This document shows positions 4,734 to 30,447 of a stretch of DNA of 44,782 nt, in pieces. Location: NCBI GenBank assembly GCA_944387885.1, contig CALXGR010000016.1, forward strand, positions 1 to 44,782, given 5' to 3'. The number at the start of each line of letters is the position of its first letter. Position 1 is the stretch's first letter. The position numbers and the translations under genes are program-made. The DNA is from an uncultured Clostridia bacterium. Its GTDB lineage: Bacteria; Bacillota; Clostridia; Oscillospirales; Ruminococcaceae. Below the pieces are notes generated by a model that was given only the letters and a program-made list of their open reading frames with translations, was not told the origin of the DNA and ran no database searches.

Positions 4734-7700
4734 TTATCTGTCCTTGTGTTTTTTGCCTGTGTAACGGAAATAGAGAATGATCAGTGCTGCAAGGGCTGTC
4801 ACAGAGATAACACCCAGCAGTACAAAACCGTTGCGCTCGCTTGCGGTCAGCTTCTGGCCGAAGTCTGCATCATTTACGGTGAAATCATCCTCCGCCGGTT
4901 CCTGTTCAGGCTGTTCCGGCTGGGTTTCCTCAGGAACTTCCTGAGCGGGAGACTCTTCTTTCATGCCCAGCAGAGCAGTAGTTTCCACTGTCTCATACCG
5001 GCCGGTCTCCTCCGAGTAAACGACCACCTGGCTGCCCAATGCGGTCAGAAGTGCCTGAAGGTCGCTTCCCTGCCCTGCGCCGGTGCCGTCTGCTGGGGTA
5101 GTACCCTGAGCGGGAGCGCCTGCGGGAGCCATGACTACCGCCTGGTTATCTCCCTGAGGCTGACCCACCTGGGCATAGGCCAGGACGCCATCCTTGTAGA
5201 GACCCTCGCCGGGCTGGTAGGTATAGGTTCCTTCCTCTGCTACCGGTGTTCCGTTGAGAGAGAGTCCCTGTCCGGGGATGTACTCGTACTGTCCCTGGTC
5301 CTGGGCAGAATCGCCCTGGCCGGGCTGCTGTGCAGTACCGTCCGTCTGGTCTCCGGCGCCGTCAAGCTCATCTCCGGTGCCGTTGGGATCATTTCCGGTG
5401 CCATCCGGCTCACCGGTTCCCAGAACCGTATCGCCTTCCAGCTGGTTTTCAGCATCTCCGCCCGTACCGTCGCCGCCCAGGTCCTCAGGTGCCTGAGCCT
5501 GGCCGCTGCCGGTTCCCAGGGAAGCCTCGCTCTCCAGGAAGCTGTCGCTCACATGGGTGCCGAAGGAATCCATAATTCCGTCCATACTTACCTTTGCGTA
5601 GCTGAGCAGGGCCGTCATGGCAGGACGGGTATCGGTGATGATGTTCCCGTTGCTGTAATCCACTACCACCACATTGGCGCTGTTATCCTCACCGGCATAG
5701 CGGATGACGGCCACATTTCCGGAATATCCAAAGTTGTTGGATATCTGGACGATTCCCGTCATGGGCAGACCATTCAGCTTCATGTTGTTCCGGTTATCCA
5801 CCAGGACTCCGTCCTTCTGAAGGAGGGCGTAGTAGTTGGTGTAGCTGCCGGTAATGCTGGCCTTCCGGGAAAGGAGCATTCCGTCTGCCACTACATTCTG
5901 CCGGGGAGATACCACATAGGCGGTACCACCCAGGTCGAACAGCCGGACATCTGCCCGCTGAGAGCCAAACATGGTGTACTCATGGAATACCCGTACAGCG
6001 GTAAGCTGGCTGTTGCCTGTGTAGGTATAGCTGTAAAGAGGTACGGCTTCCGGTTTGGTATCATTGACAGCGGCAGCGGTTCTGTCCGCAGCTGCCACGG
6101 AACCGGCAATGTCCTTTTTCAGGGTATAGACTGCCCAGCTTCCGTCCCCTGCCTGGCAGAGGATCTTGCCCTGCCACAGGTGAACGGGGGTATCTGTTTC
6201 ATCAATTCCCTGAAGGACACCCCGCTCGCCGGTGCTGGAGCCATGGATGACCTTGCCCTCTCCATCCAGATAATACCAGAGTCCATCGTAGGTCATAACA
6301 TTCCGACGAAGGGCCTGCATGTCCTGAGAAGTAAAGGCGGTAGGCACTCCATCCACAGTTACGGTGACGGGGGTCTGGAAGTCGGTGGCGAAGGAAATGG
6401 AACCATTGGCATCGGTGGTATAAGTCCCCGCAGTGCCATCTCCCAGCTGAACGGTAATGGTAGCTCCGCTTCCGTCCTGACTCTGGAAGTTTGTCAGATC
6501 CAGGGTAAAAGAATCTGCCCCGGTGGCGTAAAGAACTACCTTTGCAGGCTCGGCGCCGGGCTGAGGCAGAAGGATGCCCACTTCCTCGCCCTGGTAAGAA
6601 TCGGTATCCGGCAGACGAGCCCCATCGCTGCCCAGCAGGAAGGGCATGTACCGGTTTCCTTCATTTTCCAGAGCTTTCAGGTCCCATGCAGTGTCCGCAA
6701 AGCCCAGACCAGTGTAGAACTGGGGCTGTGCAAAGCTGTTGCCGGAAGCCAGGCCGCCCTTTTCAGGATAGAGGAAGGTATCGGTGACGGTAGCCTCCTG
6801 ACCTTCCTTGATGGCCTTTGCGGTCTGTCCGTTGAGGGTGGCTTCGTCCCAGATCATAACAGTGCCGTCACCCGCCGGGGCATAGGTGGACAGGGCGTTG
6901 GCCCAGAGAGAGGACCTGTCGCCTGCGGACCGTACCGAGCCGGTCATTACCACGCCGGAAAGATTTTCAGGAAGAATCTGATAATTCCGGTCATTGAGCT
7001 GACCGATGATACCGCCGGCATAGTTGCCCGCATATACCTCGCCGGAGAAGTAGACATTGGAGAACTTGGCATCCGTAGCATAATTCTCGTTTCTCTCCAT
7101 CTTGCCCACAATGCCGCCTGCCACATTGCCGGTGGCATGGACCTGGGCACCGCAGGCCACATTGGACAGTTCAAACAGATATCCACGGCCCAGGATGCCG
7201 CCAGCATTTTCGCCGGTGCAGTTGACAACCACATCCTCGGCCACATAGACATTCTGGAAAACAACAGAACTTCCATTGATGTAGTTCATTCCAATAAGAC
7301 CGCCCACATTGTAGGGACCGGTAACCGTAGTATCCCGAACCGTCACATTCTTTACCGTACGACTGTCACGAGAGGGATTGATACCTGCTAACGCACCAGC
7401 AGAAAGATAGTATTCCTGGGCTGGAGGTGTGGTAGGCATAGCGGAAGGATTGGTAATGGTACAGCCTATAATCTGAATATTATCCATACTCCGGTTATCA
7501 AGTTGCCCTGCCAGGCCACCCACTATGTTGTTACCGGTGACTTGAACATTTTCCACCAAAACATTGTTCAGCTTGGAGTAAGAGTATCCCATGGACCCAA
7601 AAACACCACCTGCGTAATATTGTCCTACTGTGGTGGTTGTCGATGTAACAGTTCCCTCTCTTACCGTAATGTTTTGCTTATCTCCCACGTACGCATGTCC

Positions 7701-10700
7701 GGTCAATCCACCTACTGTGGAGCTGGCAGTCACCTTAAAATCTTCCAAAGTGGCACTGCTCAGAGCATGAACCTGGTAGGCCAATCCTCCAACGCCCGCA
7801 TTACCTGTAACTTCAATATGCCTCAGTACAGCACTACTCGTGCCAGGAGCCACAATATGCACACCAGCGCCAAACAAGCTGCCCACATAATTTGCCAGTT
7901 GCGCATTGATTGTAATATTTTCTCCAGTCACATTATTGAAGGAGCCCTGAATCTGGCCGGCCAAGCCTCCCACATAACTTCCACCATACTCGCTGGAAGG
8001 AATTGAAATCTCCAGTGCATTTACGCCTACATCCAAAACATTCCCATTGATTTGTCCAAAGAAGCCAAACCGTTTGTTCGTGTTGCGGTTTGCGAAAAGA
8101 CGAATATCCTGGAAGTCACAGTCCGTAATATCATTCACCGAAACAATCACACCGGAAACGCCCCGTGCCGCCGCGACCGCAGAATAGTCTACCGAGAAGT
8201 TCTGGAAAGTAAGTCCGGAAATGTTTCCGTAGACATTTTCCATCCAGGGCGTACCCATGGTGGGGTTGGGGGTATAAATCAGGTTATAGAATCCCGCTTC
8301 ATCCCCTTGACCTTCCAGATTGCCGATTTTCAGACCAACTTCCTGCACATTCTGAGCATTGCCCAGGAAGTCGATTCTACCGGTAATCCGGAAGTTTTCT
8401 CCTGTATCGGCGTGGCCGCCTCGCATGAGATTCCGCCAGGTGGTCAAATCCAGGACCTCCCAGTAGAGGGGCTGACCAAAGTCCACAGTACCGTTCAGGC
8501 TCCAGCTGCGCCCGTCTGCTGTCTGGTATGCCACTGTCAGAGTATAAACATCCAACCGCTTGGTAAAGATTTCCAAGTCTTCCTTGATGAGGATACTGAA
8601 AGTGGTGGCTTCTTCGGATTCAGCAGATTTGTTGAAGGAAATCTGCACATTTTTAAGCTGCTGCTGAGACTCGGAAATATCGATTCCATCAATGGTAATG
8701 CTGCCGGTAGCGGAAGCAGTCTGGAGCAGTGCAATGATTTCCTCGGATGTATATCCGGGGTGTTCCAATTCTCCGGAAAGCTGGAAGGGATAGTTCTGGC
8801 CCGGCAGATATCCTGCCTGGGTAATGCGAAGGGTCGGCGGTTCTGCCTGGCCGGGAAGTTCTATCCAAATCTGCCCCTCTACCAGAGTGCCGTCCTCCCG
8901 AAGGATGAGAGGCATGCCCGGCTGTTCCAGAGTGAGCTGGCTGTAGTCGAAGGAATCTCCCATTCCTGCCACATCCGCCCAGAAATTTTTGCTGGTCAGG
9001 TCCTGAGCATCTGCCAGCCCCCGGGCATCGGACACATCCTCCGCCGGCAGGTTATTCACCGTCTGACCTTCGTAGGCATAAACATTCAGGTACTGTCCAG
9101 ACACAGAGGTACCATATGCCTCACCATTGACCCGGTTCACCTTTTCGCCGGTGGTCAGAATGTTGCCAAAGACAATGCCTCCTCGGTGGCGACCGGTGGT
9201 TCTGCCCACAAAGCCGCCCACCTGATCCCCGGTGGCGGTAATATCCACATCGGCCCATACATGGTCGGTATAGCCATAGGTTTCACTGTTGAAGCCGAAG
9301 ATGCCGCCTGTCACGCCGCCGTTGGCCTGGATGGTCCCCTGGGCATAGCAGTTGGTTATCGGGACCCGGGCGTCATACCCCACCAGGCCGCCCACGCCCT
9401 CCACGACCGGAGAACTGATGACCTGAATGTCCACGTTCCGGGTGTAGCAGCGGTCCAGCTTATAGCTGTACATATATCCCACCAGACCGCCTACCCGGGC
9501 AGGATGGGCGCCGGTGCCGTCATTGATGACCGCATCCGCCACAGAACATTCCTGGACGGAACCATATTCCACCTGGCCGGCCAGGCCGCCTACATAGCCG
9601 GTCCCCGAGATGGATACATCCCGCAGATGCACATTTACCAGGCCACCGCTGTTGAGATTTCTCACAAAGCCGGCCATGGAACTGGTCACGGTACCGGCAG
9701 CCTTGATGGTAAGCCCCTGGACCGTCAGGTTCCGGACCTCGCTGGTGCCGCCGCTCATATTGTAAATCACCCAGGGCTGGGCCAGATTTTCCAGAGAAAT
9801 ATTGCTGATGGTATGTCCATCTCCGTCCAATTTACCGGTAAAGTTACTGCCGCCGCTGGTCAGGCTGGTCTTTCTGCCGTCGAGTATAAGGGCTGCGGGA
9901 GTAATGGGATCGGCCTTGAAATCAATGTCCGATGTAAGCCGGTAGTTCCAGTTCATATGGTCATTGATGTTGGACCATTCACTGGCATTACTGACCGTCT
10001 TCCAGAATTCAAAGCCGGTGGTCTTGTAGTTGGGATAGGAGGTCATGCTGGAGGAACCTGCCGTATACTGCATTTCGGTGATGGTGTAAGCGCTCAGATA
10101 CTGAGGCTTTTCCCCATCCACCGCAGCATAGGCGATGACCTCATACAAGCCATCTCCCAAAGGCTTCTGGCTCTGGATGGTAAATTTCAACCCCGCCGCT
10201 GTGAAGCCGGTAATGGTGGCATTCCGGGGATTGTTGAGGATGAAGGAGACATTTCCCCCTTCATTGGAAATAAACTCACTGTCCCCGGAAGCCCAGCTGT
10301 CGCTGAGGATCTGAGGTTCGCTGTCTCCCAGAACCGGCAGAGGGATATAGTTCTGGTATTTCTGCATAACCGTGGACAGATTGAGCCGGGGATAGAATCC
10401 CACCTGAATGGTGCTGGTATCAAACCCTTCGCCCAGTATGCTCTGCTGCCATTCCTCATCATAGAGGGTCGCCGGCTTGGAACTCTTTAACCAGCTGGTA
10501 CGGGCTGCATAGCTGTTGAGGGAGATATAATAAACATCATGATTTTTTGCCGAGTTCGCGCTATGATAAAATACCCGTTCCTGGGCCATAGGGCTGACGG
10601 TGCTCTTGTCGCTTACATACTGGTAGAAGTCTCCCACATGGTAGCTGTTGGAGTAATCGTAGTGAGAATAAACGGCAACTGCGCCGGCGGTACTCTCTGC

Positions 10701-13700
10701 ACCGCCCAAGAACCAGGTATCATACAGGGTGAACACATTCCGGGTAACGCCTGTGGGGTAGTTCTCCCCCATGAATCCGCCGGCGTAATTCTTCATAAGC
10801 ATGACCCCGGCGCCGTTTTTCCCGTACATATAGCCATTTTCCACCAGACCGTTATTGTATCGGACACCGCCGCCTACAGCATTCTCCTGAATTGTAAGGT
10901 CGCCCCCCAGTTCAAGGATGAAATTCCGAAGGACACCGCCCCTTTCAACTGCATACGCCAGCAGGCTGCTACCATTTTGGTAGAGTGTAACCTTTCCCTG
11001 GGTGCGGACGATATAATTTTCTACAGTACCATAGATATTGCCTATAGGTCCATTTTTCACCGTGGTAGCGGCACCGAAATCATACACCAGATTCCGCACC
11101 ACCCCACCGCTCTGAACGGTATTGATAAGATAGGTATCTACCCCAGAACGTGTGACCACATGGCCCTGGAAATCAATGGTTCCCCACAGATAGTCCACAG
11201 TTGTGCTTATGTAGTGGTCAAAGTCCTCCACCACCAGATAGTTGGCAAAGGGATTCTGTCTCACCTGCAGCAGGTCACGCTGATTCCGGATGACAAAGTA
11301 GGCCCCGTCGGTCTGGAAAGCGGTGCTGTCCAGAGTCACCTCGTTACCCTGGTAGGTAGCTTTAAGTATCAGCTGGTAAGGCCGGTTAGCCGGCAGGCCC
11401 GAGATAACTTTGGCTGCATCCTCCGGATTCAGCTCATATTTGTTATCCCCATCCTGGTCCTGCAGGGGCAGCTTCCAGGTCTGGCTCAGCTCCCACTGGG
11501 TCGCAGAGAGGGTATCGCCCATGTACAGTTCCAGGGTAACGGTGGGGTCCTGGCCTTCCGGCAGACCCACCGTCAGATAGCCATTGTTATCCGTCACGGA
11601 AAGGGTAGTGGAAACGGTATAGCCCTCCTCCGGAGCAGCATCTGCCACCAGGAAAAGCTCATAGTTTTGATTGTTTTTCCAGTAGGTAAACCGGACATAG
11701 CCTACCCCTTCGGGAATGGTGATGACCTGGTTTTTGCGGTTTCGCACATACCCCATATAGCCGCCGGTCTCGGTATACAGGCACATGGAATACTCTGACC
11801 CTGCACCGTCGTTGCTGGTCCAGAAGCAGAGCTGACCCGGTTCAACGGGAACCATATCAGTCACTTTATAGTTTACATTGTCTACTGTTTTGCCGGTGTT
11901 TGTATCAATACTTTTTCCTTCCTCATAGGTCACCCCCTGGAGCAAATCATTTTTGGCAGCTGTGTAACCGTATACCTCCAGGCCCCATTGAAGAGCGCCC
12001 TCCTCTGTAACCGGGATCATCAGAGTAAAGGTGACCGCCCCATCCGGAACTACAAAAATAGCGTCGCCACCGGTACCGAAGTAGGAATCCTGCTCATGGC
12101 TGTTTTGAGTCACCAACTTTCCTTCACTATTATAGAATTTAGGAATGACATTGTAGAGTCCCGGGTTTGCATTGTACCAGGTAAAATGGTCCTCTTCCAG
12201 CTGGAGGAAAGTGATGCCCTCCGGAATTTCAAATTTCTGGGTAGTGTATGTATCCTTGTAATAACCTTGCGGTATCCACTCGCCGCTTTCGATCTGGGCA
12301 CGCACTTCCTCCCCGGTCATCTGAACCACCGGGTTCCGGGCCTGGCTGGTGGAAGCATACTCTATGCTCTCAATATTGATATCACCATTCAGGCTGCTTC
12401 CGCCCTCTACAATATAGCTCCAAAGGAGGTAGTTGGTCTCGTAGTTGGAGAAGCCCTCGGAGTCGTTATATGCCGCAGCCACAAACTTCAGCTCATACTC
12501 GGCCCCTTCAATGATGCCGTCAAAGGTGATGGTCTGGGTCTCACCGTTCTCCTTGGTGTCCGCATACATCTTTTCCATGTCCAGGAGGGTCCCGTTGTAA
12601 TACAGGTAGACATAAACCAGTCCGTCTTCCTGAACCGTACCATCCGGGTCATAGATATGGGCATCGATGAGGCTCAAAATGTCGCCTGCAGCAAACAGGT
12701 CGTTGTACTGCAGCTTGGGCCGGATCTTTTTGGTGGTGAAGGAGCCGGTGGAAAGGGTGGTGGGAATCTGGTATTCCTCGCCGCTCTTGATGACCACAGA
12801 CTGAATCTGCACATTATACCGTGTGGAAGTCTGCAATACCGCAGGCACATCCACTCTGATCCGGGCGGGAGTAGTGTACTGGATGTTTTCCGCATCCGGA
12901 TTTACCACCTTGGGAGACAAGGCTTCCCAGGGAGTATAGGTCTCAAACAGGCTCTTGTCTGCCACCAGCATAATGGCCGGAGTCAGGGCATCCCCCTTCT
13001 GCAGGACCAATGCTCCCAGGGTATCGTCATAGTACCAGCTTCCATCTGCCTCGCCCTCACTGGTGGGACGGTTCAGTTCTTCCATGGACAGCGCACAGCT
13101 TACAGCCGGGGTTTTGCTGCCCTCCTTGGTGATATTGATACGATACTCGTCCACCAGCGGCAGAATATCCAGGGTGGTCTTGCTGGTCATGGTGGCATTC
13201 AGGGTCATGCTGGTGTCCGCAAGATTGGCCACACTGGTGCTGAAATTCACCAGACCGGAAGACAAGGAGGCCGTATAAATACGGGCATAACCCATCTGTA
13301 CATCCCGCTGCACCGGCAGGGAGGGAGAAGTCACTCCATCCGGCTGGGAAGCGTACATGCCGGTCACAATAAACTGATAAGTCCGGGCAAAGGCAAGGCT
13401 GTCAATGGTAAAGGTGTAACTCTTTCCATCCTCCGGCTCCGCCAGGGTGAGGGTCTTGCTCTGGCTGTCTCCAAAGGGAGTGCCATCCTCAAAGGTGCCC
13501 GTAAGGACTGCTGCCTGGCCGTTGGTGTCCTGAGCGGTCAGGGTGAGAGGCAGACTGACCCCATCCTCCTGTGCCAGTGCTCCATCCGGATCGCTGACTT
13601 TCAGGGTAAGGGTGAGCTTATCGGTCACATTGGCGGTTTCAATAATTTCCACCTTGGGCAGGACCTTGGCTGTGTAAGCATCAAAAGGCTGGGCACTGTC

Positions 13701-15845: not shown

Positions 15846-16685
15846 TTATTTCAGCCCGTCCAACAGATCGGGCCGTGTAAAGAGCAGCACTTTTGTGCCG
15901 TCCTGTAATGTCAGCGAATCCTCCAGCAGAGACACGGTATAATCCCCGGACACGGCCTTGGCCCTCACCGCCCCGGTGGGAGGCTCCATGGTCATGGTGC
16001 CGTCGGCCCGGTTATATACCATTACATCGTTCTGATAATCCGCAATAACATAAGACATGGCTCCCAGCTCCAGCTGGTAGCCGTTGAATTCCAGGGTCAC
16101 CGGCTCCAGGAAGAGATAGGTGTCCTGTCCATCATACATAAAGCCTCGGGTAAGAGAGGTCTCTCTCCCTCCCGAAACGGCGGTAACTGTGCCGTTATCC
16201 AGATAATCCAGCTCCGTGAAGCATTCCGCCCGCACGGCTGTGACGCTTCCGGATGCGTAGTAGACCATGGGCTGGGGAAGCACCACCGTCTGCCGGTCCT
16301 CATAGTACACAGGCAGGCTGCTCATTTCCCCTTCCAGCTGGCTCCCCTTCATTTCGGTCACGCCTTCCGCATTTCTGCTCAGCCGGGTGCCGTCTGCCAG
16401 AGGAGTCTGCTGTCCGGCATAATATCGGTATGCCGTTCCGTTTATGGTGTAGCTGCCCGCCATCTGTGCAAACTGCACCATGAGCAGCGCAGCCAATATC
16501 ACTATATCCGCAGGAATAATGATCATGAGAATATTCCTGATCCTGCGTTTTTTCCGCCGTTCCAGAGCCTTGGCTCCACCGATTTTCTCTTTGAGCTGTG
16601 CATCTGTCTCCGGAGGTGCCTGGGGCACACGGCGGACGGGAGGCCGGCGGGTATCTCCCGTTTCCCGAATCTCTTTAGTCTTCAA
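15846..16685 (-). CDS. Single-span 'head-only' surface protein, 279 aa
   Basis: The start is a TTG at 16685 with AAGGAG about 9 nt upstream, overlapping the end of the preceding gene by 11 bp. About 47 N-terminal residues are cytosolic, charged and Pro/Arg-rich ('RRKKRRIR' just before the membrane). One transmembrane helix (about 48-70) follows, then about 205 extracellular residues rich in beta strands. The outer part resembles the N-terminal heads of the 3,670-, 2,131- and 540-residue proteins (a 'YDGQDTYLFLE' strand matched by 'LADRRYLITYDE', 'LSDDRYMVQSSE' and 'LDDENWLITAD' in the others), but there is no stalk or repeat region. I infer that the head domain is the common membrane-proximal unit and that this protein is its minimal version, perhaps an adaptor between the motor and the giants. 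The relationship needs a profile comparison to prove. No known function. Confidence 0.85.
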   Translation of the reverse strand: MKTKEIRETGDTRRPPVRRVPQAPPETDAQLKEKIGGAKALERRKKRRIRNILMIIIPADIVILAALLMVQFAQMAGSYTINGTAYRYYAGQQTPLADGTRLSRNAEGVTEMKGSQLEGEMSSLPVYYEDRQTVVLPQPMVYYASGSVTAVRAECFTELDYLDNGTVTAVSGGRETSLTRGFMYDGQDTYLFLEPVTLEFNGYQLELGAMSYVIADYQNDVMVYNRADGTMTMEPPTGAVRAKAVSGDYTVSLLEDSLTLQDGTKVLLFTRPDLLDGLK

Positions 16686-17591: not shown

Positions 17592-19847
<2,256 letters not shown>

Positions 19848-19851
<4 letters not shown>

Positions 19852-21176
19852 TCTCTCTCCCCCTGTTGGATCTGGCTGGCAGCCGCCAGCATCTGATCCG
19901 GTGTACGGCCGGCAAACTTGGGCTGGCAGAGCATCTGCAGGATCTTTGCGCCCCTGCGCATGGTTCTGCGCAGATTCTCGCCCATCTCGTCTGCATTGGC
20001 CAGCTCAAAGACCTCCCGCTGTTCCAGGTAGGCCAGCAGCTCCCGCCGCAGAGGCGGGCCGGCTTTCTTCATGGCCGGGCTCTGAACTGCGCCGCCCAGA
20101 CGGGAAACGGACAGGCCGTAGTTGATGGCAGGCTTTTGCCCTTTTTCAAAGTTTTTGGCAGACAGCACGATCTGTCCGTCGGTGATGGAGATGATGTTGG
20201 TGGAAATATAGTCGGTAATATCCCCGCCTTTGGTTTCACAGATAGGCAGGATAGTAATGGAACCGCCGTTCTTATGCTGGCAGCCCAGCTCCAGCATACG
20301 GGAATGGCTGTAGAAAATATCCGGGGGATAAGCATCACGGCCGGGAGTCTTTCCCATAAGAAGGGCAAGTTCACGGCAGACATCTGCGTGGCGCTTCAGG
20401 TCATCGATGGCCACCAGCACATCATACCGCTGTTCAAGGTAGTACCGGGCAATGGAAAGGGCCGCATAGGGAGTATTCCGGAGCACAGGAGCCGGGTCGT
20501 CATTAAAGGCGGCCACGATCACGGTGTAAACCATGGCGCCCCGGGCCAGCAGCTGGCTGTAAATATCCTTGATTTCCTTTTTGGTCTTGCCCACCGCCAC
20601 ATAGATGCAGAGGACATTGGCCCCTGCCTGGTTGCAGATGGTGTCCAATGTGATCTGGGTTTTTCCGGTTTTCTTATCACCGATGATCAGCTGGCGCTGG
20701 CCCCGGCCGATGGGATACATCAGGTCAATGCCGGTGATTCCGGTGAGAAGAGGCCGGTTGACGGTGGTCCGGTCCATAATGGGGATGGGAGCGGTTTCCA
20801 AAGGCAGTTCCTTCAACTCATCCATCCGCTTTCCTACCAGCCGGTCCACGCCGGACAGGTCAATGACATGGCCCAGGGAGTTGGGGGAATACTGGACAGT
20901 ATATTCCCGTCCGGTAGCCACTACCTGGTCTCCAATATGTACCTTCCCGGTGACCCGGGTCAGCGCCACCAGAACACAGTCCTGACGGATGGCATCAATG
21001 TAACCTTCGGCCTTGTCTCCCACGGTCACCCGCTCAAAATATGCGGCGCCTTCCAACCCTGTTACTTCCAGGATATATTCCCGCACAAGCCGTACATGGC
21101 CGGTGGCAAAGGCATTGGCGCCCTTTTTGATATCTGCAATTTTCTGCTCCAGGACAGTATCAATGGTGCTGTTCAT
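19848..21176 (-). CDS. F1-like alpha subunit, C-terminally short, 442 aa
   Basis: Homologue of AtpA. P-loop GDKKTGKT (166-173, usually GDRQTGKT), Walker B region 'VLVAIDDL' (253-260), 'PGRDAYPPDIFYSHSRMLE' and 'INYGLSVSRLGGAVQ', which carries the arginine finger (Arg359) that completes the catalytic site on beta. That rules out a degenerate alpha. The N-terminal helix that binds delta in normal enzymes is partly kept. The protein is about 60 residues shorter than usual and stops within the C-terminal helical domain. The ATG follows the b/delta stop codon directly (no spacer), and the 3' end overlaps gamma by 4 bp, so translation of b/delta-alpha-gamma is likely coupled. Cytoplasmic. Confidence 0.95.
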
Positions 21177-21965
21177 TTAACTGATCTCCCTTGTTTTGAT
21201 ACAATAGTCGAATACGCAATTATCGGCCTCCAGCAAAAAGCCCTCACAGATGGCCGGATCTTCCACCACCTGTACCTGGGGAGGAATCCCCTGACACCGG
21301 GTCATGGGGGCCACCCGCAGCAGGGGCGGATGAGGCTCCCGGTCTGCTTTTTCTCTCAGGAAGTCATAGAACCCCAGGCTTTTGAAGCCGCCGCTGCACT
21401 GGCTGTGATATTCCTGAACCAGGTTCCGCTGTTCAGGAGACAAAGACTCCATAAGCAGCCGGTACTGGTCCTCCCCGGGCAGGGTGGACAGGGTAAACAC
21501 CGTTTCAAAAGAGAGTTCTTTCAGCAAGCGGGAGGCAGGCCCCGGCTTGCATTCCAAAGCCTCCCGGGGTATCCGGGCAAGGGCTTCCTGGGGAGAAAAG
21601 GCAAATCCTGTGCGGATCTTCTGGTAAAGGCGGGCTGCTCCATCGTCCCGGTACTGGGCGGAGGAGATTTTCTCCACTGCTCCCAGCAGGGCGGTGCGGG
21701 CTGCCGCCTCCCCGGCAGAAGCCTTGGGCTGGAAGGGCTGTTTTTTCTCTACCCGGGGCTGTTCCTGGACCGAATTCTTTTTGCTCTCGATCCAGGCCAG
21801 TTCCCGGCTCCGCTCCTCCAGGATGTCATCGTAAGCAGAAACCAGCTCCAGGGTCCTGGAACGGATGCTTCTGCCCACCGATTTTGCCAGCCAGGCCACA
21901 GCCAAAGCCGCAAGTCCCACCAGCAGCCCCACTACCAGGGCTACTGCTATGTAAGCGTAGATCAT
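21177..21965 (-). CDS. Peripheral-stalk protein: b-like anchor with delta-like C-terminus, 262 aa
   Basis: One N-terminal transmembrane helix (about 4-28), then a charged helix as in b subunits ('RSRTLELVSAYDDILEERSRELAW'-type region), a Pro/Lys-rich joint, and a globular helical C-terminal half. The last ~24 residues ('GFLLEADNCVFDYCIKTREI') match the pattern that ends AtpH/OSCP, 'GG...i.d..iD.Si...L'. No separate atpH or atpF is present, so this looks like one fused b-delta stator subunit. Fused b-delta proteins are known in some bacteria (mycobacteria), but they are longer and arranged differently. It would hold the alpha/beta hexamer to the membrane. ATG at 21965 with GGAG 4 nt upstream; 15 bp after the c-like gene. 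Confidence 0.75.
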   Translation of the reverse strand: MIYAYIAVALVVGLLVGLAALAVAWLAKSVGRSIRSRTLELVSAYDDILEERSRELAWIESKKNSVQEQPRVEKKQPFQPKASAGEAAARTALLGAVEKISSAQYRDDGAARLYQKIRTGFAFSPQEALARIPREALECKPGPASRLLKELSFETVFTLSTLPGEDQYRLLMESLSPEQRNLVQEYHSQCSGGFKSLGFYDFLREKADREPHPPLLRVAPMTRCQGIPPQVQVVEDPAICEGFLLEADNCVFDYCIKTREIS

Positions 21966-21980: not shown

Positions 21981-22274
<294 letters not shown>

Positions 22275-22314
22275 TTACGGAACGCTCCCTTTCAAGGGGC
22301 GTATTTTCTGCCCG

Positions 22315-23937
22315 TTAGGGCTGCGTGGTGTAGAAGTTGTTGATGCAGCGTGCCGTCATCATTTCGGCATCATTGGCATCCAGCAGCTTAACCTCCAGCA
22401 CCTGGGTAGCCTTGAAGGCCGCCAGCTGATCTTCCTTGATGGGCAGTTCCACCAGCACGCCGCCGGAAGAAGCCTTTTTCAGGTCATCCGCGGACAGCTC
22501 CCGGGTAATGACCTGGGGACTGCCGCCGGCGCCGTTCAGGGTCATTTCCAGCCGGGAAGGCTCACCCTCCAGAGAATCCATCAGCAGGGTGACTCCAACG
22601 GCTCCGGTATTTACATAGTCAATGGCCAGCCGGTTCTGAAGCTGAGGAGTGACCAGACGGTAATAATCGTCCAGGGTCCTTTCCATACTGCCCATCTCGT
22701 CTTCCGCCACATGGGCCAAAACCACATAGTATTCCGTAGCCGGAGTGATTCCGTTGTTGAAAACATAACTGGAATCGTAGGTGCTGACAGAAGTGCGGAA
22801 AGCCGCGTTGAAGTTGGCCCAGTAATTATCCACTGCATCGGCCTTGTCCGTATCACTGTCATACAGGTCCTGAACAGTGATGCCCAGATCTTTCAGATCG
22901 CTGGCCTTGTGCAGTTCCAGATAAACCATACCCAGGGTGCCGAAGGGGTCCACAAAGTAGTAGTCCACCTTGATAATGTTGCTGCTCAGTGCCTGGGCAC
23001 TCTTCAGGGTGACGATCTGGACTACCTCCTGATCCTCACCAACACCGCCATCGCCGCCTGCGCCGCCGGAACCACCGGTACCGCCAGTGCCGCCTGCGCC
23101 GCCAACACCGCCGGTGCCGCCTGCACCGCCAGTGCCGCCCACGCCGCCTGTTCCACCGGTGCCGCCAGTGCCGCCGGTACCGCCGGTACCGCCGTCACCG
23201 CCATCACCGCCCCGGATGGTCAGGTCGATGGAGTCGGGAGTCTGCTCTTCCTCAATGGTTTTGTAGATTCCGGAATCGTAAGTATTGGTGCTGCCGATCA
23301 CCCGTGCCATATCAATGGTCTGTCCGGTGACTGTAAGCAGCTCGTTGGCAATATCAAAGGTAAGGTCTCCCGCCACCAGGGTGGTGGGCTGAGTGGTTTT
23401 AAGGCTCAGGTTGCTGGAGTACATCCGTGCGTTGCCTACCATATCCATAACAATGTAAAGGTAGTTTTCCGCAGTGAAAGTTCCTTCTGTGTCGGTAATC
23501 TCGTCATAGGTGATGAGATACCGGCGGTCAGCCAGCTTGTAGAGGCTGGGAGTATCCCCTGCCAGTTCCTCTCCATCGGTGACGCTGGTCACCTGTCCAT
23601 TCACATCCACCTGGTAGCCGCCGCCAAAGATGATGGCTCCGCCACCGGTGTATGCCATGGTATGGGCTCCCAGAGGAAGGCTGACGCCCCCTTCCACCCC
23701 CAGGGTGTACTGTCCGTCAGCGCCAAGGCGCACCACGCCGCCGTCCGTCAGTTCCACGGGAGTGAAGGTGTTGTCATAGAGAACCGCACCGGCGGGCAGG
23801 GTCACCCCTGCCGCCTGGTGGGTTACGGTTGTCCGGGCCGATACAGCCATGGCGCCGAACATAATCAGCAGCAATGCGGCAAAAACGGCAAAGCAGACCT
23901 TTGTACCCGTATTGAATTTCCGTGTAGGGTTCATCAT
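22315..23937 (-). CDS. Membrane-anchored surface protein with Gly-Gly-X stalk, 540 aa
   Basis: Hydrophobic segment at about 14-33 (anchor; a cleavable signal ending near 'AVSA' is possible). Residues about 35-240 are the head region, with 'LYKLADRRYLITYDE' resembling the 2,131-residue protein's 'LWKLSDDRYMVQSSE'. Residues 243-302 are 19 perfect Gly-Gly-X triplets plus Gly-Glu-Asp. The C-terminal ~235 residues are two Ig/FN3-like modules. There is no sorting signal. It lies directly after the 2,131-residue gene (18 bp) and repeats its plan with one-tenth of the C-terminal repeat mass. I infer that the two proteins assemble together, perhaps through their glycine stalks, and stand above the motor. 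ATG at 23937. Confidence 0.9.
   Translation of the reverse strand: MMNPTRKFNTGTKVCFAVFAALLLIMFGAMAVSARTTVTHQAAGVTLPAGAVLYDNTFTPVELTDGGVVRLGADGQYTLGVEGGVSLPLGAHTMAYTGGGAIIFGGGYQVDVNGQVTSVTDGEELAGDTPSLYKLADRRYLITYDEITDTEGTFTAENYLYIVMDMVGNARMYSSNLSLKTTQPTTLVAGDLTFDIANELLTVTGQTIDMARVIGSTNTYDSGIYKTIEEEQTPDSIDLTIRGGDGGDGGTGGTGGTGGTGGTGGVGGTGGAGGTGGVGGAGGTGGTGGSGGAGGDGGVGEDQEVVQIVTLKSAQALSSNIIKVDYYFVDPFGTLGMVYLELHKASDLKDLGITVQDLYDSDTDKADAVDNYWANFNAAFRTSVSTYDSSYVFNNGITPATEYYVVLAHVAEDEMGSMERTLDDYYRLVTPQLQNRLAIDYVNTGAVGVTLLMDSLEGEPSRLEMTLNGAGGSPQVITRELSADDLKKASSGGVLVELPIKEDQLAAFKATQVLEVKLLDANDAEMMTARCINNFYTTQP
23032..23211 (-). repeat. Gly-Gly-X stalk region inside the 540-residue protein
   Basis: In-frame 9-bp repeat coding 19 GGX triplets (X = Asp, Thr, Val, Ala, Ser) and one GED. 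Codons vary (GGC/GGT/GGA with ACC/ACT/ACA), so selection is on the protein, not on recent DNA slippage. Such sequences form polyglycine-II or collagen-like rods. Confidence 0.9.
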
Positions 23938-23955
23938 CTAACCTCCGTTCTTTTT

Positions 23956-26900
23956 TTAGCCGCGGTATGTGAGACTCAGAGTCTTGTAAGGTGCAGAAGC
24001 ATCCTCACTTCTGTAAAGCTGGACGGTAATAAGGTAGTTACCGCTTGTGACCTGTGCGGGGATATCGTAAGTGTATACCTCGTATCCCTGTGCATCGGTC
24101 GTCCGGGTAAAGATCTTATCGCCTGCGGAAACCCTGGACTCACCGGACAGGAAGGTAGGCACATTCAAGCCGGTAACCGACCACTTGACCAGGGGGAAGC
24201 TCTGGCGTGCCTGATTATTTTCGTCAATGGTGACTACGCCATAGCTTTCAGCCAGGTTGAGCTGAAGGGTGTTGGTTCCCACACGGAGGATGGAAGCCAT
24301 CTTCTCATTGATGAGGATCCCCTCGGAGTCGGTGGTCTGCTGGGTCTTGAGGCCCACCTCATACCGTTTCTTGATCCACTTCATGGAATCAAGCTCGGTA
24401 TAGGAACCGCCCTGATCGTCCCAGATTCGGTTGATCATCTTCTGGAAATTGTCCTCGTCTCCAAAGAACCATTCATAGTTCTGAAGCTGATCCTCAGACC
24501 CTGCTTCGTCGGTTTCCACCAGACCATCATGGTCAAAGTCGGGCACCGCAAACACATGCATGGTGTACTCGGTAGCCTGGTCGATCTTCTGTCCTTCCAG
24601 GTTGCTTGCCGTGAGGCAATCCGCCGAGAGGACAAAGGATTTCTGAAGATCTGCACCGGAATACAGCTCTTCATCGTAGGTGGTAAGGAGACGGTATTCC
24701 TTTTCCCCGTTCTTTGCGGTAAACCGCACGGCATACAGGGCTCCTTCATCGGTCTCTGTGGAGCCTTCCTTCCGTCCCATGTAAGAGAACTGGGCATCGC
24801 TGAGGGTCACCTGGAAGGTAAGAGCGTCAGAGGTTGCATTCTGTGCATAGATGAGTGCGCCGGTATTGCCCACCGGAGAAATGGTGAACTTGAAGGTGTT
24901 TTCACCCACAATGTCTTCCCCGCCCTGCTCTGTTACATAGATCCGCAGGTAGTAAGTACCGCCGGGAACCAGCTTGTTGCGGAGCTGAGAGGGTTCCAGG
25001 TTGAGGGTGAGTTCACAGTTGGAAGTGGTCAGGTTCTTGGGAGCTGTCAGGATGGAATCCAATTCCGCTCCGCTGTAAATGGGAGTCTGGCTCTCATAGT
25101 TGCCTTCGCTGGCATAAATGGCATAATGTGCCTCAAATCCCAGGAAGGGAGTAATGGTGTAATTCATTTTGAAGAACTTTTCAAAATAGGAATTATTGTA
25201 ATACACCATTTCCTGAGCAGACTCGATGACCACATCGTCTACTGCGGTAAAGCGGTAGATCGCCCGCTGTGCGGACTGCGCATCCATCAGAACAGTGGGC
25301 TGGCCATCAATCATCATGCAGACGGCCAGCCAGTAGGTCTTGCCGGCTTCCAGGCCTTCCAGAACAAGGTTTGTGCTCTGGTCCACCGGCTTGGCGGTTC
25401 CCTTTTCATCGATGGCGACCCTTACCGGTCCGGAGGTGATGGGATTTTTCAGTCCCTGTGCATCCTCCTGGCTGGCGAATACACCCATGTACACAATGCG
25501 GATATTCTCTTCCTCGCCCTCTGCGGGATCTGCATTGGCAGCGCCGTCAATGGTAAAGTTGGGGGAAACCTCCAGCTTGGTGGTGGTTGCCCGATAGTTG
25601 CCCATGGCGATGGCGGGAGTGATGGAGGTAAGCTGGAACTGTCCATCTCCTGCGGAAGGAACCGACAGGACCGCGCAGCCCTTGGGCACTGCATACCGTC
25701 CGGTAAGGAGGTCCACACTGGAATCGGTGGAAATATCCATACCATAATGGTCAATATAGAAGTAGCGTCCTACCGCAGCATTTGTTGCGCTGGTAAGATA
25801 TCGGGTGACACCGTAAGTCTTGGCAGGCTTATTCAGGTCATTCAGGCCATTGTACAGCCGCTTCAGGCTCAGATGATTGTTGCCGCCGTCGTGGACTGCA
25901 ACAGCGCCGCTGGGAGATGCACCGGTACCGCCGGTTACAGAACTGAGGTAACTCTCAAATCCGAAGGTGTTGCTTTCCTCACCGGTACCGTTGATCATCT
26001 GGAGGGCAAACATGGCATCGTCTCCGTCTACCAGCGCCCAGCCCAGTTCTCCGTTATCGTACAGGAGTTCTGCAGTGTACCGGATGGTCTTGCCCACCAG
26101 ATTGGCGATCCGTCCGGTAGCCAGTTCTGCATAGGGCCGTCCATCCACACCGACACTTACGGGCAGATAAATGGGATCGGTAGTGACCGTTTCCTTTCCA
26201 TCCTGATAGGAGAAGGTCAGCTTCATGGCGTAAAGCCGCTCTGCAATGGTCGCTGCTGCTGCGCCGCCGCCCACCGTATCCTTTACCCGGAAGGTGATGA
26301 TGTTTCCTGCCATATTGCTCAGGTCTGCTTCCACCTGGATCTGGCTGCCGTAATTTGCGAACCGGTCATCCCAGGCCCAGTCCACAGGCACCTGGCACAG
26401 ATAGAAGGTATCGGTGTCCTGGTCCTCCCAGGCAGTTCCCTCGGTAAGGTCCTTCATGATCTCGGTATAGTCAATGCCATACCGGCTGATTTCCAGCTGA
26501 GGAGTTATCATGCCGGTAGCAGGCTGGTTGCCCACGGCAGCGATCCGGTAGGGGATGTCCACCTGCCACCAGCCATCACCCACCTCTTCTATTCCGGTGT
26601 CTGTGTCATATGTGGCCTTGGTGTCGTTGATTGCGCAGGTCTGGGTAATTCCATCCGCATCCACCCAGGTAACCTTGGTCTTTTCCTCGAAGGTTCCCGT
26701 ATCGTTGATGGTTCCATCCACATCCCGATATTTGTACTGGATGGTAATTGTACCGGATGTGGCCAGGCCCAAACTATCCTCGCTGGACTTTGTCTGGTAA
26801 ACCATGGTATGGATCTCGGGGTCCATACGAGGTGCCTCATACATACCGGAGTTCAGCACATAGACGCTGTTCTGGCCAATGACCTTGCCGAACTGCTGAC

Positions 26901-29900
26901 CGGCGCCGTAAGCCGCCTTGTAAGCAGTGTAATCCGCATGCCCGTAGGGATAGACCGACAGCTGGCTCTCGTCAAAGTTGCCGGTGGTAGAATACCGGAC
27001 CGTATAGGCAAAAGTATACCGGTATCCGCGGCCCATACCGCTGAGAGCACCGCTGGTGAGCTGATCCTCTCCGGTATAGTACACATAGCAGTTATTGATG
27101 AACTGGGCATCCTTATCCTCGGTCTTGGTTCCGCCAAAGAGGAAGGCTACCGAAGGCACCGTATCCGATGCGGCAGAAATGCGCTGGGTCGCCTCGATCA
27201 GATGGTTTGCATTCTGGATGGGGTCCTTGCCGCTCAGGAGGGCATTATAGAACTCGCTGTATTCCAGGGCATAGTAGGTCACATCGTAGCCCAGCCGCTG
27301 CACATTATCGTAGGTAGATTCCAGCCGATAGCCAATGAGCAGTTCATCAGGCTGGGTCTCATCATACTTGGCTCCGTATTTGGGCGCATCCTCATTATAA
27401 ATGGGAGTCACCTTCACGCCCTGGGCAGGGTTGGAAAGCAGGTCCGGCGGAGTTGCCTGTGCAGTAATGGGCAGATTTGCGTTGGCCACCGAGTCAAAGA
27501 TGTTCTGGTATCCCAGAGCCATGCTGTAGGTGGCATCGGTGACAGTGGTGACCACCAGGGTGTAGTCCACACTGGGGCTGAGGGTCAGGCTGCCGCCGAA
27601 AGTGTTTTCTGTTATGTCAATACCGGCAGAGCCGTACAGCTGTTCCAGCTGGGTGGTGCTGGTAATATCGGTGTAGGCAATACGAACCTTATTCACGCCG
27701 GTACCATTGTAGAGTTCCAGCCGGACAGAACCGGACCGCAGTTCGTTGAGGGCGTAAGCCTCACGATCTTTGTCCTCGGTGGTATTGGCTGCGGACAGTT
27801 TCAGATTCCTGGAAATGGCGGTACCGGTGCTCTCACTGGGAGTGCTCCAGGTAGCTGCCAGGTTGATGGTGGCGTAGGTGCGGAAGCCGGTGGTCCCGAT
27901 GGTCTGGTAGACCACGCCCTTGCCGTCGCCCAGATTGAGCCAGCCAGACACCACGATGGTATAATTAGTGTTCTCGTAGAGATTTTTCAGATCCAGCTTG
28001 ACGGTAGGATAGTTGGAGGCCTGCCGGCTGTAAGTGGCAGTGCCCAGCTTGCCTTCATCGCCCACCGCCACAGTGTTATTGTCGGTAAGGGTGATCTCGA
28101 AGGCCAGGTCTCCGCTGTTCAGGCTGTCCGCATAGAAGCTCAGAGTCAACGGCTGAGACTCGCTGACCACCAGTTCAGAGCTGGCAGAAGTAAGCTGAAT
28201 GGTAAGATCTCCCGTGAATTTGTTGTACTCGGAGGAAGGCTCGCCCACGGGAGTCAGGGTAATATGAGGCAGCTGGTCACCGTAGCTCTGTACCGGGTCA
28301 CTGGTTCCCAGATCGTAAGTAACCTCTTTCTCATTGTCATTGAAAACAGCCTCCACCTTGAAGGTATACTGCTTTCCGGACTCCAGGGAGAAGGTAATGG
28401 GCTCGCCCCGGGCAGGCTCCACCTTCTGGGAGCGGACCGGGTTGCCGGCCTGGTCATATGCAGTATAAATGAAGGAGACAATACCGGAATCCAGGTCCGT
28501 CACCGTGGGACGGTACACCTCAAAGGTACCGGTAGCCCGGTTATAGCTGGCCTTGGGTTTATCGCCAGCAGTCCAGGTGGGCGGGGTCTTGAGGGTCTGA
28601 AGCTCCAGCTCCTGGCTGGTAAGGGTTTTCAGGCCTGCATCCGTTTCCACATAGACCCGGGCAATATATTTGGTATTGCTTTCCAGGTCAGGGAAATTCA
28701 GAGCCATATCCGGTTCCAGGGTTCCGCCGGGATTTTCAGGACCGGAACCTCCGGGGCCGAAGCGGCTGATGGTTCCTGCCTGGTAATCCAGCACATACTT
28801 GCCCTGGTAATTGGTTCCGCTTTCCACAGAGGCCAGATTGAATCCGGCGTTCTGTTCGGGGGTAAGCAGGAACACCTGCACCGACTTTACGCTCTCCTGG
28901 TAAGCCTGGGCAATGGAAGAGTTCACTGTCAGGGCATTGGCCTCTGCAGTATGCTTGCTCAGGATCACACCGGTAGAATCGGTATAGAAGATCCGGTTGA
29001 TGAACTCCCGGGAATAGATCATGTCGTTCATCTGGTAGTAAGCCACCACAGACAAACGGTAGGTGGTATCCGGTTCCAGGGCATTCTTCTTTGTGGCAAA
29101 GCAGATTTCGGTCTGACCGTTGGCAAACTCTATAAAGCCTGCATTGGTTTCAAAATCGTCAGGCCAGGTATTTTCTCCCAGGTCTGCAATGGGGAAGCAG
29201 CTGATCACCTCTCCGGTATCCTGGTTGTATATGGTAACGGTGCCGTCATAGCTGTTGGCTCCGCTGCCTACTACCTCAGTGAGGGAGCCGCTCTCATCCT
29301 TTACGGTGATCTCGCCCCGCAGAGTGGTGGCAGTGACCTCCCACTCCGTAATGCTCATGGTGGGCAGTGCGCTGTTTACAGTGCTTTCGGTAAGGGCATC
29401 ATCACCAGCGGCACCATTGCCACCGGCTGCACCGCTGGCGCCGCCCTTGCCGCTGGTTCCGTTCTGGCCGGTCTGGCCGGAAGATCCGGTCTCGCCGCCG
29501 CCGCCCATCATGCCGGCTTCACCCTGGGCACCTACATCGCCGTCAGAACCATCTTCACCGTCAATGCCGGTAATGTTCAGTTCAGGAACGATCTGGCGGC
29601 GGGTCTCATCCTCGGTAAGTACAATGCTGTCGTCGGTGTTGACGGCCAGCTTTGCCAGGGACATCTTGTATTCATCATTTTCCACGATCTGAGTGATCGG
29701 ATAAATTTTGACCCCGGAAGCAGTCTGGATATAGCACTCCTCGGAGATTGTGCTCCACTGGTTTTCCTCAGTGAGAAGCTGCACAATACCGTCCTCGGTA
29801 ACGCGTACCTCCACATACCCGGAAACGGCCCGCTCATCTTCGTCAGAAAAGTGGACCGTCAGCTCAGAGGACTGCACCATATAACGGTCATCAGACAGTT

Positions 29901-30339
29901 TCCACAGATGATCGCCAAAGGTAAGGGTACCGGAGTTGGTCTGTGCAGTGTATCCCTCGCCGGAGGAGGTGATCTCAACCCCCTCGGTAATATAGTAGTT
30001 GTTGATAAAGTTGGCGGACAGATCATTGAAGTCCAGCAGCACACCATCGCTGAAAGCGCTGACTGCCCCGCCATCCAGATGGAGGAAACTGCGCTGCTCC
30101 ACCGATGCAGTCTCACCGGATGCATCGGTAAAAGTCACAACGCCCAGTTTGGTGACCTTATAGTTCTCATCCGCGGAGAATATGACCTGTTTTACAGAAT
30201 CTTCCCCACTCTGAAGCACATATCCGTTCTGTGCAAATGCAGGCAGACTGCTTTCTGTCAGCCAGATACCCGCTCCAATGATCACCAAAAGGCCTACCAC
30301 CAGCAGACCCAGGGTGATTCCCAGCACTCGTTTCAGCAT
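23956..30339 (-). CDS. Giant anchored surface protein with collagen-like stalk, about 2,127-2,131 aa
   Basis: First gene of the 26-kb operon. Two starts are possible: GTG at 30351 only 2 nt after GGAGG, or ATG at 30339, 14 nt after it; I prefer the ATG. N-terminal hydrophobic segment (about 8-30, numbered from the GTG), head region (about 40-260), then a strict collagen-like run of 19 Gly-X-Y triplets (262-318), then roughly 1,800 residues of Ig/FN3-like beta modules with recurring 'Y.....T.Y.v.v.......' strands, to the very end (...YKTLSLTYRG). No C-terminal membrane segment, LPXTG, SLH or GW motif, so it is held by its N-terminus or released if that is cleaved. Likely an extracellular fibre or adhesin. 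The head likeness to its operon neighbours is seen by eye; the motor link is inference from operon context. Confidence 0.9.
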   Translation of the reverse strand: MLKRVLGITLGLLVVGLLVIIGAGIWLTESSLPAFAQNGYVLQSGEDSVKQVIFSADENYKVTKLGVVTFTDASGETASVEQRSFLHLDGGAVSAFSDGVLLDFNDLSANFINNYYITEGVEITSSGEGYTAQTNSGTLTFGDHLWKLSDDRYMVQSSELTVHFSDEDERAVSGYVEVRVTEDGIVQLLTEENQWSTISEECYIQTASGVKIYPITQIVENDEYKMSLAKLAVNTDDSIVLTEDETRRQIVPELNITGIDGEDGSDGDVGAQGEAGMMGGGGETGSSGQTGQNGTSGKGGASGAAGGNGAAGDDALTESTVNSALPTMSITEWEVTATTLRGEITVKDESGSLTEVVGSGANSYDGTVTIYNQDTGEVISCFPIADLGENTWPDDFETNAGFIEFANGQTEICFATKKNALEPDTTYRLSVVAYYQMNDMIYSREFINRIFYTDSTGVILSKHTAEANALTVNSSIAQAYQESVKSVQVFLLTPEQNAGFNLASVESGTNYQGKYVLDYQAGTISRFGPGGSGPENPGGTLEPDMALNFPDLESNTKYIARVYVETDAGLKTLTSQELELQTLKTPPTWTAGDKPKASYNRATGTFEVYRPTVTDLDSGIVSFIYTAYDQAGNPVRSQKVEPARGEPITFSLESGKQYTFKVEAVFNDNEKEVTYDLGTSDPVQSYGDQLPHITLTPVGEPSSEYNKFTGDLTIQLTSASSELVVSESQPLTLSFYADSLNSGDLAFEITLTDNNTVAVGDEGKLGTATYSRQASNYPTVKLDLKNLYENTNYTIVVSGWLNLGDGKGVVYQTIGTTGFRTYATINLAATWSTPSESTGTAISRNLKLSAANTTEDKDREAYALNELRSGSVRLELYNGTGVNKVRIAYTDITSTTQLEQLYGSAGIDITENTFGGSLTLSPSVDYTLVVTTVTDATYSMALGYQNIFDSVANANLPITAQATPPDLLSNPAQGVKVTPIYNEDAPKYGAKYDETQPDELLIGYRLESTYDNVQRLGYDVTYYALEYSEFYNALLSGKDPIQNANHLIEATQRISAASDTVPSVAFLFGGTKTEDKDAQFINNCYVYYTGEDQLTSGALSGMGRGYRYTFAYTVRYSTTGNFDESQLSVYPYGHADYTAYKAAYGAGQQFGKVIGQNSVYVLNSGMYEAPRMDPEIHTMVYQTKSSEDSLGLATSGTITIQYKYRDVDGTINDTGTFEEKTKVTWVDADGITQTCAINDTKATYDTDTGIEEVGDGWWQVDIPYRIAAVGNQPATGMITPQLEISRYGIDYTEIMKDLTEGTAWEDQDTDTFYLCQVPVDWAWDDRFANYGSQIQVEADLSNMAGNIITFRVKDTVGGGAAAATIAERLYAMKLTFSYQDGKETVTTDPIYLPVSVGVDGRPYAELATGRIANLVGKTIRYTAELLYDNGELGWALVDGDDAMFALQMINGTGEESNTFGFESYLSSVTGGTGASPSGAVAVHDGGNNHLSLKRLYNGLNDLNKPAKTYGVTRYLTSATNAAVGRYFYIDHYGMDISTDSSVDLLTGRYAVPKGCAVLSVPSAGDGQFQLTSITPAIAMGNYRATTTKLEVSPNFTIDGAANADPAEGEEENIRIVYMGVFASQEDAQGLKNPITSGPVRVAIDEKGTAKPVDQSTNLVLEGLEAGKTYWLAVCMMIDGQPTVLMDAQSAQRAIYRFTAVDDVVIESAQEMVYYNNSYFEKFFKMNYTITPFLGFEAHYAIYASEGNYESQTPIYSGAELDSILTAPKNLTTSNCELTLNLEPSQLRNKLVPGGTYYLRIYVTEQGGEDIVGENTFKFTISPVGNTGALIYAQNATSDALTFQVTLSDAQFSYMGRKEGSTETDEGALYAVRFTAKNGEKEYRLLTTYDEELYSGADLQKSFVLSADCLTASNLEGQKIDQATEYTMHVFAVPDFDHDGLVETDEAGSEDQLQNYEWFFGDEDNFQKMINRIWDDQGGSYTELDSMKWIKKRYEVGLKTQQTTDSEGILINEKMASILRVGTNTLQLNLAESYGVVTIDENNQARQSFPLVKWSVTGLNVPTFLSGESRVSAGDKIFTRTTDAQGYEVYTYDIPAQVTSGNYLITVQLYRSEDASAPYKTLSLTYRG
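29398..29568 (-). repeat. Collagen-like Gly-X-Y stalk (19 triplets) in the 2,131-residue protein
   Basis: Residues 262-318: nineteen uninterrupted G-X-Y triplets with mixed X/Y (Asp, Glu, Ser, Ala, Gln, Thr, Met), ending at GDD. The length equals the 19 GGX triplets of the neighbouring 540-residue protein, each placed after a head of similar size. Confidence 0.9.
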
Positions 30340-30447
30340 ATGGTTTCCCACATCCTCCTTTACAGGGCTTTGCTCAACGACCGTAAGATCGATTCGCCAC
30401 GCTTTTGTCTATGGCATTCTTATCCAGAATATTAGAATTACTCTCAT

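Follow-up and report, generated by a model that had tools for sequence, protein, structure and literature searches.

An F1-like ATPase encoded among giant surface proteins in an uncultured Clostridia bacterium: a candidate ATP-driven surface machine

The known tasks of rotary ATPases are ion pumping and ATP synthesis. What, then, is the task of an F1-like ATPase whose genes are flanked on both sides by genes for giant surface proteins? This question is raised by a locus in a stretch of 44,782 nucleotides (contig CALXGR010000016.1 of assembly GCA_944387885.1) from an uncultured Clostridia bacterium of the family Ruminococcaceae; the whole stretch is referred to as the window in the following. 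Open reading frame (ORF) analysis and Pfam/NCBIfam profile searches confirmed the observation of a preliminary description that F1-like ATPase genes and giant surface-protein genes are joined in one cluster. Between 30351 and 4734 the minus strand carries eleven ORFs in tandem, which encode, in gene order, proteins of 2131, 540, 80, 262, 442, 259, 470, 112, 180, 279 and 3670 amino acids (aa). On balance we favour the reading that this operon encodes an ATP-driven rotary machine which turns or works surface proteins across the cell wall and does not pump ions.

The locus could simply be the housekeeping ATP synthase, but this was rejected because two other F1Fo operons exist in the genome. The source genome (2.04 Mb, 85% complete) contains six matches to PF00006, two in the operon described here and two in each of the other two operons. 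The latter are located on contigs C10 and C15 and comprise genes for a, c, b, delta, alpha, gamma, beta and epsilon. The preliminary description depended on at least one separate, complete atp operon in this genome, and two are present, each with an atpB and a c gene of its own. It had also left open that an atpB and a c gene encoded elsewhere serve this F1; as those found sit in their own operons, we regard this as unlikely. Among the nine relatives searched all have atpB elsewhere, and operon beta and ordinary beta are found together in eight. No match to beta was obtained in the remaining one, G300, whose operon contig measures 3.6 kb. In the second ordinary atp operon of the source genome (G000; locus L061 on C15) delta and alpha are joined in one 679-aa frame. 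Ordinary alpha frames of about 570–680 aa occur in a number of genomes of the window’s family, and a delta-alpha fusion may be common there.

As noted in the preliminary description, the unit has no AtpB a subunit: the atpB matches of the genome are on C10 and C15 and none is in the window (contig C16). We considered the 180-aa polytopic membrane protein (16675..17217, minus strand, like all genes of the operon) as a divergent subunit a, and rejected this since profile comparison with subunit a gave 0.8%. Three transmembrane (TM) segments are seen in this protein by hydropathy, and 3–5 in its relatives. In the alignment a Lys or Arg occupies the middle of its TM2 in 15/15 members, despite the carboxylate-free c-like partner described next.

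The c-like protein (80 aa, 21981..22223) is recognised by PF00137 (7.7e-7) and gives a 97% profile match with ordinary c over 37 columns, covering the end of helix 1 and the loop. The rotor-contact loop RNPE is kept in all 20 loci of the operon that we found. At the ion-binding column, by contrast with the Glu present in 38/38 ordinary c proteins (drawn from 52 loci), none of the 20 operon proteins (17 distinct) has a carboxylate; the position is taken by Ala, Val, Met, Thr or Ser. The core of TM2 is free of charged, amide and His residues, with a Gln in G304 as the one exception. Because this carboxylate is missing, the c-like protein is predicted by the accepted mechanism to pump no ions, protons and sodium alike. 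Strong conservation is instead seen in the outer half of TM2 (FAFVFLLLYFNP-like), which could be a docking face for another part.

The catalytic part of the motor appears complete. The alpha-like subunit (442 aa, 19848..21176; ordinary alpha is longer, 506 aa) matches PF00006 with 3.9e-70, the gamma-like subunit (259 aa, 19072..19851) matches PF00231 with 1.6e-26, and the beta-like subunit (470 aa, 17592..19004) matches PF00006 with 3.6e-62. Compared with ordinary gamma, the gamma-like protein reaches a profile probability of 98% across 215 columns. The curated atpD cut-off is exceeded by beta (TIGR01039, 468.8 bits, cut-off 462.9), whereas alpha, with 391.5 of 554 and 361.7 of 484 bits, does not reach those set for ordinary alpha. 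The residues named in the preliminary description are all present, namely the arginine finger of alpha (SVSRLGG) and the P-loop, catalytic Glu (GxGER) and Walker B Asp of beta. When counted without the near-copies G110 and G971, the three beta features are conserved in 16/16 operon loci, and the arginine finger and P-loop lysine of alpha in 18/18; the DELSEED region is recognisable. Searched against solved structures, beta is closest to an ordinary F1 beta (8e-114), with the beta of the Mycoplasma mobile G1-ATPase (5.8e-87) following.

A tree was built from 16 operon betas, 17 operon alphas, 11 ordinary betas and 2 ordinary alphas, the last number being small since alphas were picked by alignment to a beta and few met the length rule. 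The operon betas form one group (93/94), apart from the 11 ordinary betas (96/92), and the operon alphas group weakly (71/75). The tree covers operon and ordinary sequences; of the types that the preliminary description had suggested for a beta tree, it contains no N-ATPase or mycoplasma sequences.

Does the operon also encode a stator? The b/delta-like protein (262 aa, 21177..21965) has an N-terminal TM segment, a long helix and a C-terminal part predicted to be delta/OSCP-like. Its profile match with ordinary delta is 78.5%, and Pfam OSCP is hit in 3/16 members (best 0.0035). Searching with the predicted structure in Foldseek returned chains from ATP-synthase entries at all of ranks 1–37, with E < 0.001 at rank 1 only, and we predict on this basis that the protein resembles delta/OSCP in fold. 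A peripheral stalk is thus represented with its delta part by profile, Pfam OSCP and predicted fold, and with its b part by topology only. With intact catalytic residues and a predicted delta/OSCP-like fold of b/delta, motor and stator seem to be retained in the operon. The c-, b/delta-, alpha-, gamma- and beta-like genes of the preliminary description therefore stand. For the 112-aa protein (17240..17578) profile comparison with ordinary epsilon gave 4.6%, and its epsilon label rests on position in the operon only. No Pfam family above cut-off was found for the 262-aa, 112-aa, 180-aa and 279-aa proteins.

The combination of an F1 with surface proteins is not confined to the window. Altogether we found 20 loci in 19 genomes, the window included (19 further loci; G110 and L040, which are the same contig, were counted once, likewise G305 and G1218). 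To the contig ends the order is kept as 2131-like, 540-like, c, b/delta, alpha, gamma, beta, epsilon-position, polytopic, 279-like and giant. Exceptions are G905 and G971, in which no giant lies beside the operon, and G301, in which an extra 255-aa frame (L044:4465-5232) is inserted between gamma and beta. For some fast-evolving genes the assignment follows their position: the 540-like gene in G302b, the polytopic gene in G304, G905 and G971, and b/delta in G905 and G971. In the related genomes G1427 (L118) and G1460 (L117) frame breaks split gamma and the 540-like gene, where assembly error and decay cannot be told apart. The giant of G1483 spans two frames, and with its first 855 residues as query a giant was matched in 9/9 genomes (eight of family f80 including G1483, and G1312). 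In G905 and G971 the giant lies on other contigs, and G971 and G1427 contain more than one copy. The surface genes thus accompany close relatives of this F1, as the preliminary description had presumed, even where the giant is unlinked.

In a scan of named genomes ten loci were detected, nine of which are relatives at 57–100% alpha identity. Their record labels, which are depositors’ names for metagenome bins, read Lachnospiraceae, Oscillospiraceae, Clostridiales Family XIII, Peptococcaceae and ‘uncultured Gemmiger’. A gut sample is stated in two of the nine records (horse feces, roe deer reticulum). Records of several families share the operon order at 56–75% alpha identity, and one genome, G302, has two divergent copies (L045 and L098) whose alphas are 72% and 58% identical to that of the window. 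Sampling by taxon gave an alpha of this clade in 2/297 genomes of the window’s family (the only matches above 45% identity among the matches listed), in 1/394 of its order, 3/391 of its class and 3/398 of its phylum, the window’s genome being one of each of the last three counts. The figures were 8/117 for family f80, 1/180 for the family of G302 (G302 itself) and 1/1 for that of G1312. The unit is patchy, with few sampled genomes carrying it. A protein database yielded 553 gamma relatives at threshold, some of which are perhaps ordinary gammas, and the 120 metagenomic ones listed are 63–99% identical; judged from these gamma relatives in metagenomes the system is not rare. At least 191 relatives of the 540-aa protein and at least 18 of the 279-aa protein were found when the 7988 and 7995 candidates, respectively, sharing most words were scored. 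P0179, a relative of the 540-aa protein, has a C-terminal CHAP domain (Pfam 9.8e-14). We also rejected an origin from a phage or plasmid: gamma had no match in phage or plasmid records and alpha none in one viral-contig scan.

We next turn to the surface proteins. A hydropathy scan bore out the four membrane-anchored extracellular proteins and the polytopic protein of the preliminary description, with an N-terminal hydrophobic segment in 4/4 surface proteins and a C-terminal one in addition in the giant. The 2131-aa protein (23956..30351) consists of an N-terminal TM segment, an ectodomain of about 230 aa, a collagen-like Gly-X-Y run (residues 262–318) and a part matching fn3; in Pfam, fn3 scores above and Collagen below cut-off. 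The 540-aa protein (22315..23937) has an N-terminal TM segment, a beta-rich ectodomain and a Gly-Gly-X run (residues 243–302), followed by one predicted fn3-type domain (306–432); from the model a second one is likely. Structure searches with this model gave mainly fn3 and Ig-like matches and barely covered the N-terminal ectodomain. The 279-aa protein (15846..16685) shows an N-terminal tail of about 50 residues, predicted to be cytoplasmic, one TM segment and an ectodomain of about 200 residues; it has no rod. In the 3670-aa giant (4734..15746) a low-complexity linker of 192 residues follows the first domain. A Pfam search gave no family for this giant; for three others, two of them incomplete, it gave GLUG below cut-off in two and nothing in one.

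The glycine runs of the two rod proteins are matched in length within each operon. Counted in triplets, the 2131-like/540-like pairs measure 19/20, 38/40, 37/39, 19/19, 27/28, 27/30, 20/19 and 26/28, thus agreeing within three triplets in 8/8 operons (r = 0.993; 72 of 40,320 permutations are as close). The remaining lengths of the two proteins correlate with r = 0.29. Even the two operons of G302 differ from each other accordingly, with rods of 37/39 and 26/28. The eight loci exclude G301 and G299 (2131-like gene incomplete), the near-copies G110 and G971, and the f80 loci (no run of 12 or more triplets; G1434, G1427 and G1460 not measurable as pairs). Because the runs match in this way, the two proteins may well form one shared rod, perhaps one that spans the wall. 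Profile comparison also relates them to each other, with 96.5% when TM segment and glycine run are included and 74% over 85 columns for the ectodomain alone. One ectodomain common to all four surface proteins was rejected, the 2131/540 pair alone being supported: the 540/giant and 540/279 matches of 88% and 70% fall to 3% and 7–8% without the TM segments. A match of the giant’s linker length to the rods proved loose only (r = 0.66, p = 0.054, 9 loci); as a post hoc remark, in none of the 9 loci does the linker fall short of the rod by more than 3 residues.

How does the unit compare with known systems? With F1Fo ATP synthase it shares alpha, beta, gamma, a c-like and a b/delta-like protein in near-usual order (c, b/delta, alpha, gamma, beta). 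It differs in having no subunit a, a c-like protein without the ion carboxylate, and four surface proteins and a polytopic protein added. With these two defining features, subunit a and the c carboxylate, absent, it is not an F1Fo ATP synthase. N-ATPases, the alternate F1Fo type, are ion pumps and likewise constitute a further F1 in a genome. The N-ATPase profiles remain below cut-off (TIGR03305 420 of 752 bits, TIGR03324 333 of 750 bits), as do those of FliI/SctN (best 214 of 587 bits, TIGR03498). Bacterial collagen-like surface proteins also place a Gly-X-Y run between membrane anchor and outer domains, and Pfam Collagen is found in 4/4 2131-like proteins scanned (above cut-off in 2). Here, in contrast, two proteins of one operon have length-matched runs, one Gly-X-Y and one Gly-Gly-X.

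The closest parallels are the F1-like ATPases of mycoplasmas to which the preliminary description had compared the locus. As described in PMC12994834, the type 3 F1-like X0 ATPase is an extra F1 without ordinary Fo in its cluster, often adjacent to surface proteins, and is needed for surface function with MIB-MIP. Its cluster is reported there to have seven genes, including a 12-TM protein, no b homologue and no N-terminal helix in alpha. In our operon there are a c-like protein, a TM-anchored b/delta-like protein, an alpha N terminus and giant rod proteins, and the same text does not report a c-like protein for the seven-gene clusters. Neither the 12-TM Protein 1 nor the large Protein 5 with two C-terminal TM segments, as characterised in that paper, is among the eleven operon genes. 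The MSC_0618/0619 profiles score below cut-off (393 of 570 and 289 of 520 bits). For the type 2 G1-ATPase of M. mobile gliding, the proposal in PMC11864180 is that an F1-like motor transmits force across the membrane to large surface proteins; GliD is considered there to stem from a fusion of b and delta, a possible parallel to the b/delta protein studied here. That ATPase is described as a twin motor with an extra N-terminal beta domain, a GliD without TM segment and an alpha without H1 helix. Here beta lacks such an extension, a TM segment anchors b/delta, and the operon includes a c-like protein. The H1 helix, which according to these two sources is missing from alpha in types 2 and 3, is also a point of difference, as alignments of this alpha start at residue 4 or 8 with ordinary alpha profiles and at residue 29 or 33 with mycoplasma ones. 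Of the type 2 profiles MMOB1670 (beta) reaches 366 of 850 bits and MMOB1660 (alpha) 367 of 600 bits, the latter being second best for this alpha. The likeness to mycoplasmas thus holds in principle, in an F1 without ordinary Fo and with surface proteins, and fails at the family cut-offs and the c-like protein. With cut-offs unmet, and for the mycoplasma types also with different membrane parts, the unit is neither an N-ATPase nor a mycoplasma type 2 or 3 ATPase.

Taken at face value, the parts suggest how such a machine could work. ATP hydrolysis in alpha3beta3 would turn gamma, and the kept RNPE loop would pass this rotation to a ring of the c-like protein. The b/delta protein would hold alpha3beta3 still, with the polytopic protein probably as its membrane base and the 279-aa protein perhaps in the stator as well. 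The Gly-X-Y and Gly-Gly-X runs of the 2131- and 540-aa proteins would bundle into one stiff rod, carrying motion through the peptidoglycan to the outer domains and the giant. The latter would be an exchangeable outer arm, being in one family also encoded elsewhere and in more than one copy. In this fully drawn form, an F1 of walled bacteria in which a c-ring devoid of ion sites spins a collagen-like drive shaft and swings exchangeable giant arms, as an ATP-powered counterpart of the flagellum that needs no ion gradient, the proposal is tentative and we would rather doubt than assert it. The extra F1, the missing subunit a and the travelling surface genes of the preliminary description are observed; ATP-driven motion of the surface proteins, as well as rotation, coupling and role of the machine, is what we infer from the sequences. 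Adhesion, movement over mucus or fibre, glycan handling and ligand clearing are candidate roles between which sequence cannot tell.

Other explanations have to be weighed against a rotary machine. ATP might open, close or reset a surface complex without any shaft turning through the wall. A reset model is given in PMC12994834 for the closest functional precedent, in which the type 3 ATPase of mycoplasmas works with MIB-MIP, and fn3-type surface proteins could clamp a ligand. Against this, the operon keeps a c-like protein with rotor-contact loop and a likely b/delta stator; moreover, the matched rods suit a stiff shaft, and profile searches recognised no protease family in the window’s surface proteins. 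We therefore judge it unlikely. Somewhat less credit still is given to a motor for secretion or assembly of the giant surface proteins. FliI/SctN, relatives of F1, are export ATPases, and the alpha- and beta-like proteins match their profiles at lower rank; yet the score of beta is 469 bits for the ordinary beta profile and 214 for FliI, and that of alpha is 392 for the ordinary profile and 178 for SctN. Gamma, c and b/delta are retained, and the initial hydrophobic segment of the surface proteins would fit ordinary Sec export.

It could also be that a spare F1 and the surface proteins are jointly regulated and nothing more. In favour of this, the coupling in our own reading is a prediction from the genes. 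On the other hand, gene order has been kept across several families at the alpha identities given above, and an F1 would be left without ordinary role because its ion site is lost, so that mere co-transcription appears improbable to us. The lowest probability of all is assigned to an ion pump with an unusual site, in which the polytopic protein would take the place of subunit a and contribute the coupling charge. The Lys or Arg in its TM2 would be suited to this, but the c-like proteins of all 20 loci lack the carboxylate and the comparison with subunit a was negative.

The boundaries of the operon agree only in part with the one promoter and one terminator noted in the preliminary description. 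About 15 bases past the giant’s stop a terminator-like hairpin of 12 pairs (4719-4688, minus strand) runs into TTTTT, two of these bases lying in the stem; the scanner reports it on the plus strand only. The promoter-like match TTGATT-16-TATAAT (30475-30448, minus strand) agrees at 10/12 positions, and 13 matches as good were found in the region versus 10.5 expected, that is, not above chance. Two genes are located directly upstream on the same strand (30536-34656); one encodes a CHASE2-adenylate/guanylate cyclase, the other a GGDEF-EAL protein that weakly matches Cache. Given these, second-messenger control of the putative machine is possible. A CHASE2-cyclase piece is located downstream of the operon in G298. 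A gene of metallo-beta-lactamase fold (3868-4677) follows the giant and adjoins the operon in G298 too (45% identity). At the window end a recombinase gene with Recombinase and zinc-ribbon domains is found (43352-44695).

Mycoplasmas, which have no cell wall, are the only published case of F1 re-use for surface work that we found; a literature search, with preprints and most subscription journals outside its reach, returned no description of such a system outside them. The re-use itself therefore has precedent, while for the anatomy, an ion-dead c protein, a stator and wall-length rods, we found none. If our reading is true, the absence of a carboxylate in c and the matched glycine rods would provide a testable sequence signature of the system, and the relative of c without ion site, the intact motor and the likely stator would make up a natural rotary ATPase uncoupled from ions and geared to mechanics. 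Some bacteria, animal-gut ones included, carry the operon besides their ordinary ATP synthases, and for walled bacteria it would be a new ATP-powered way to move or work surface proteins.

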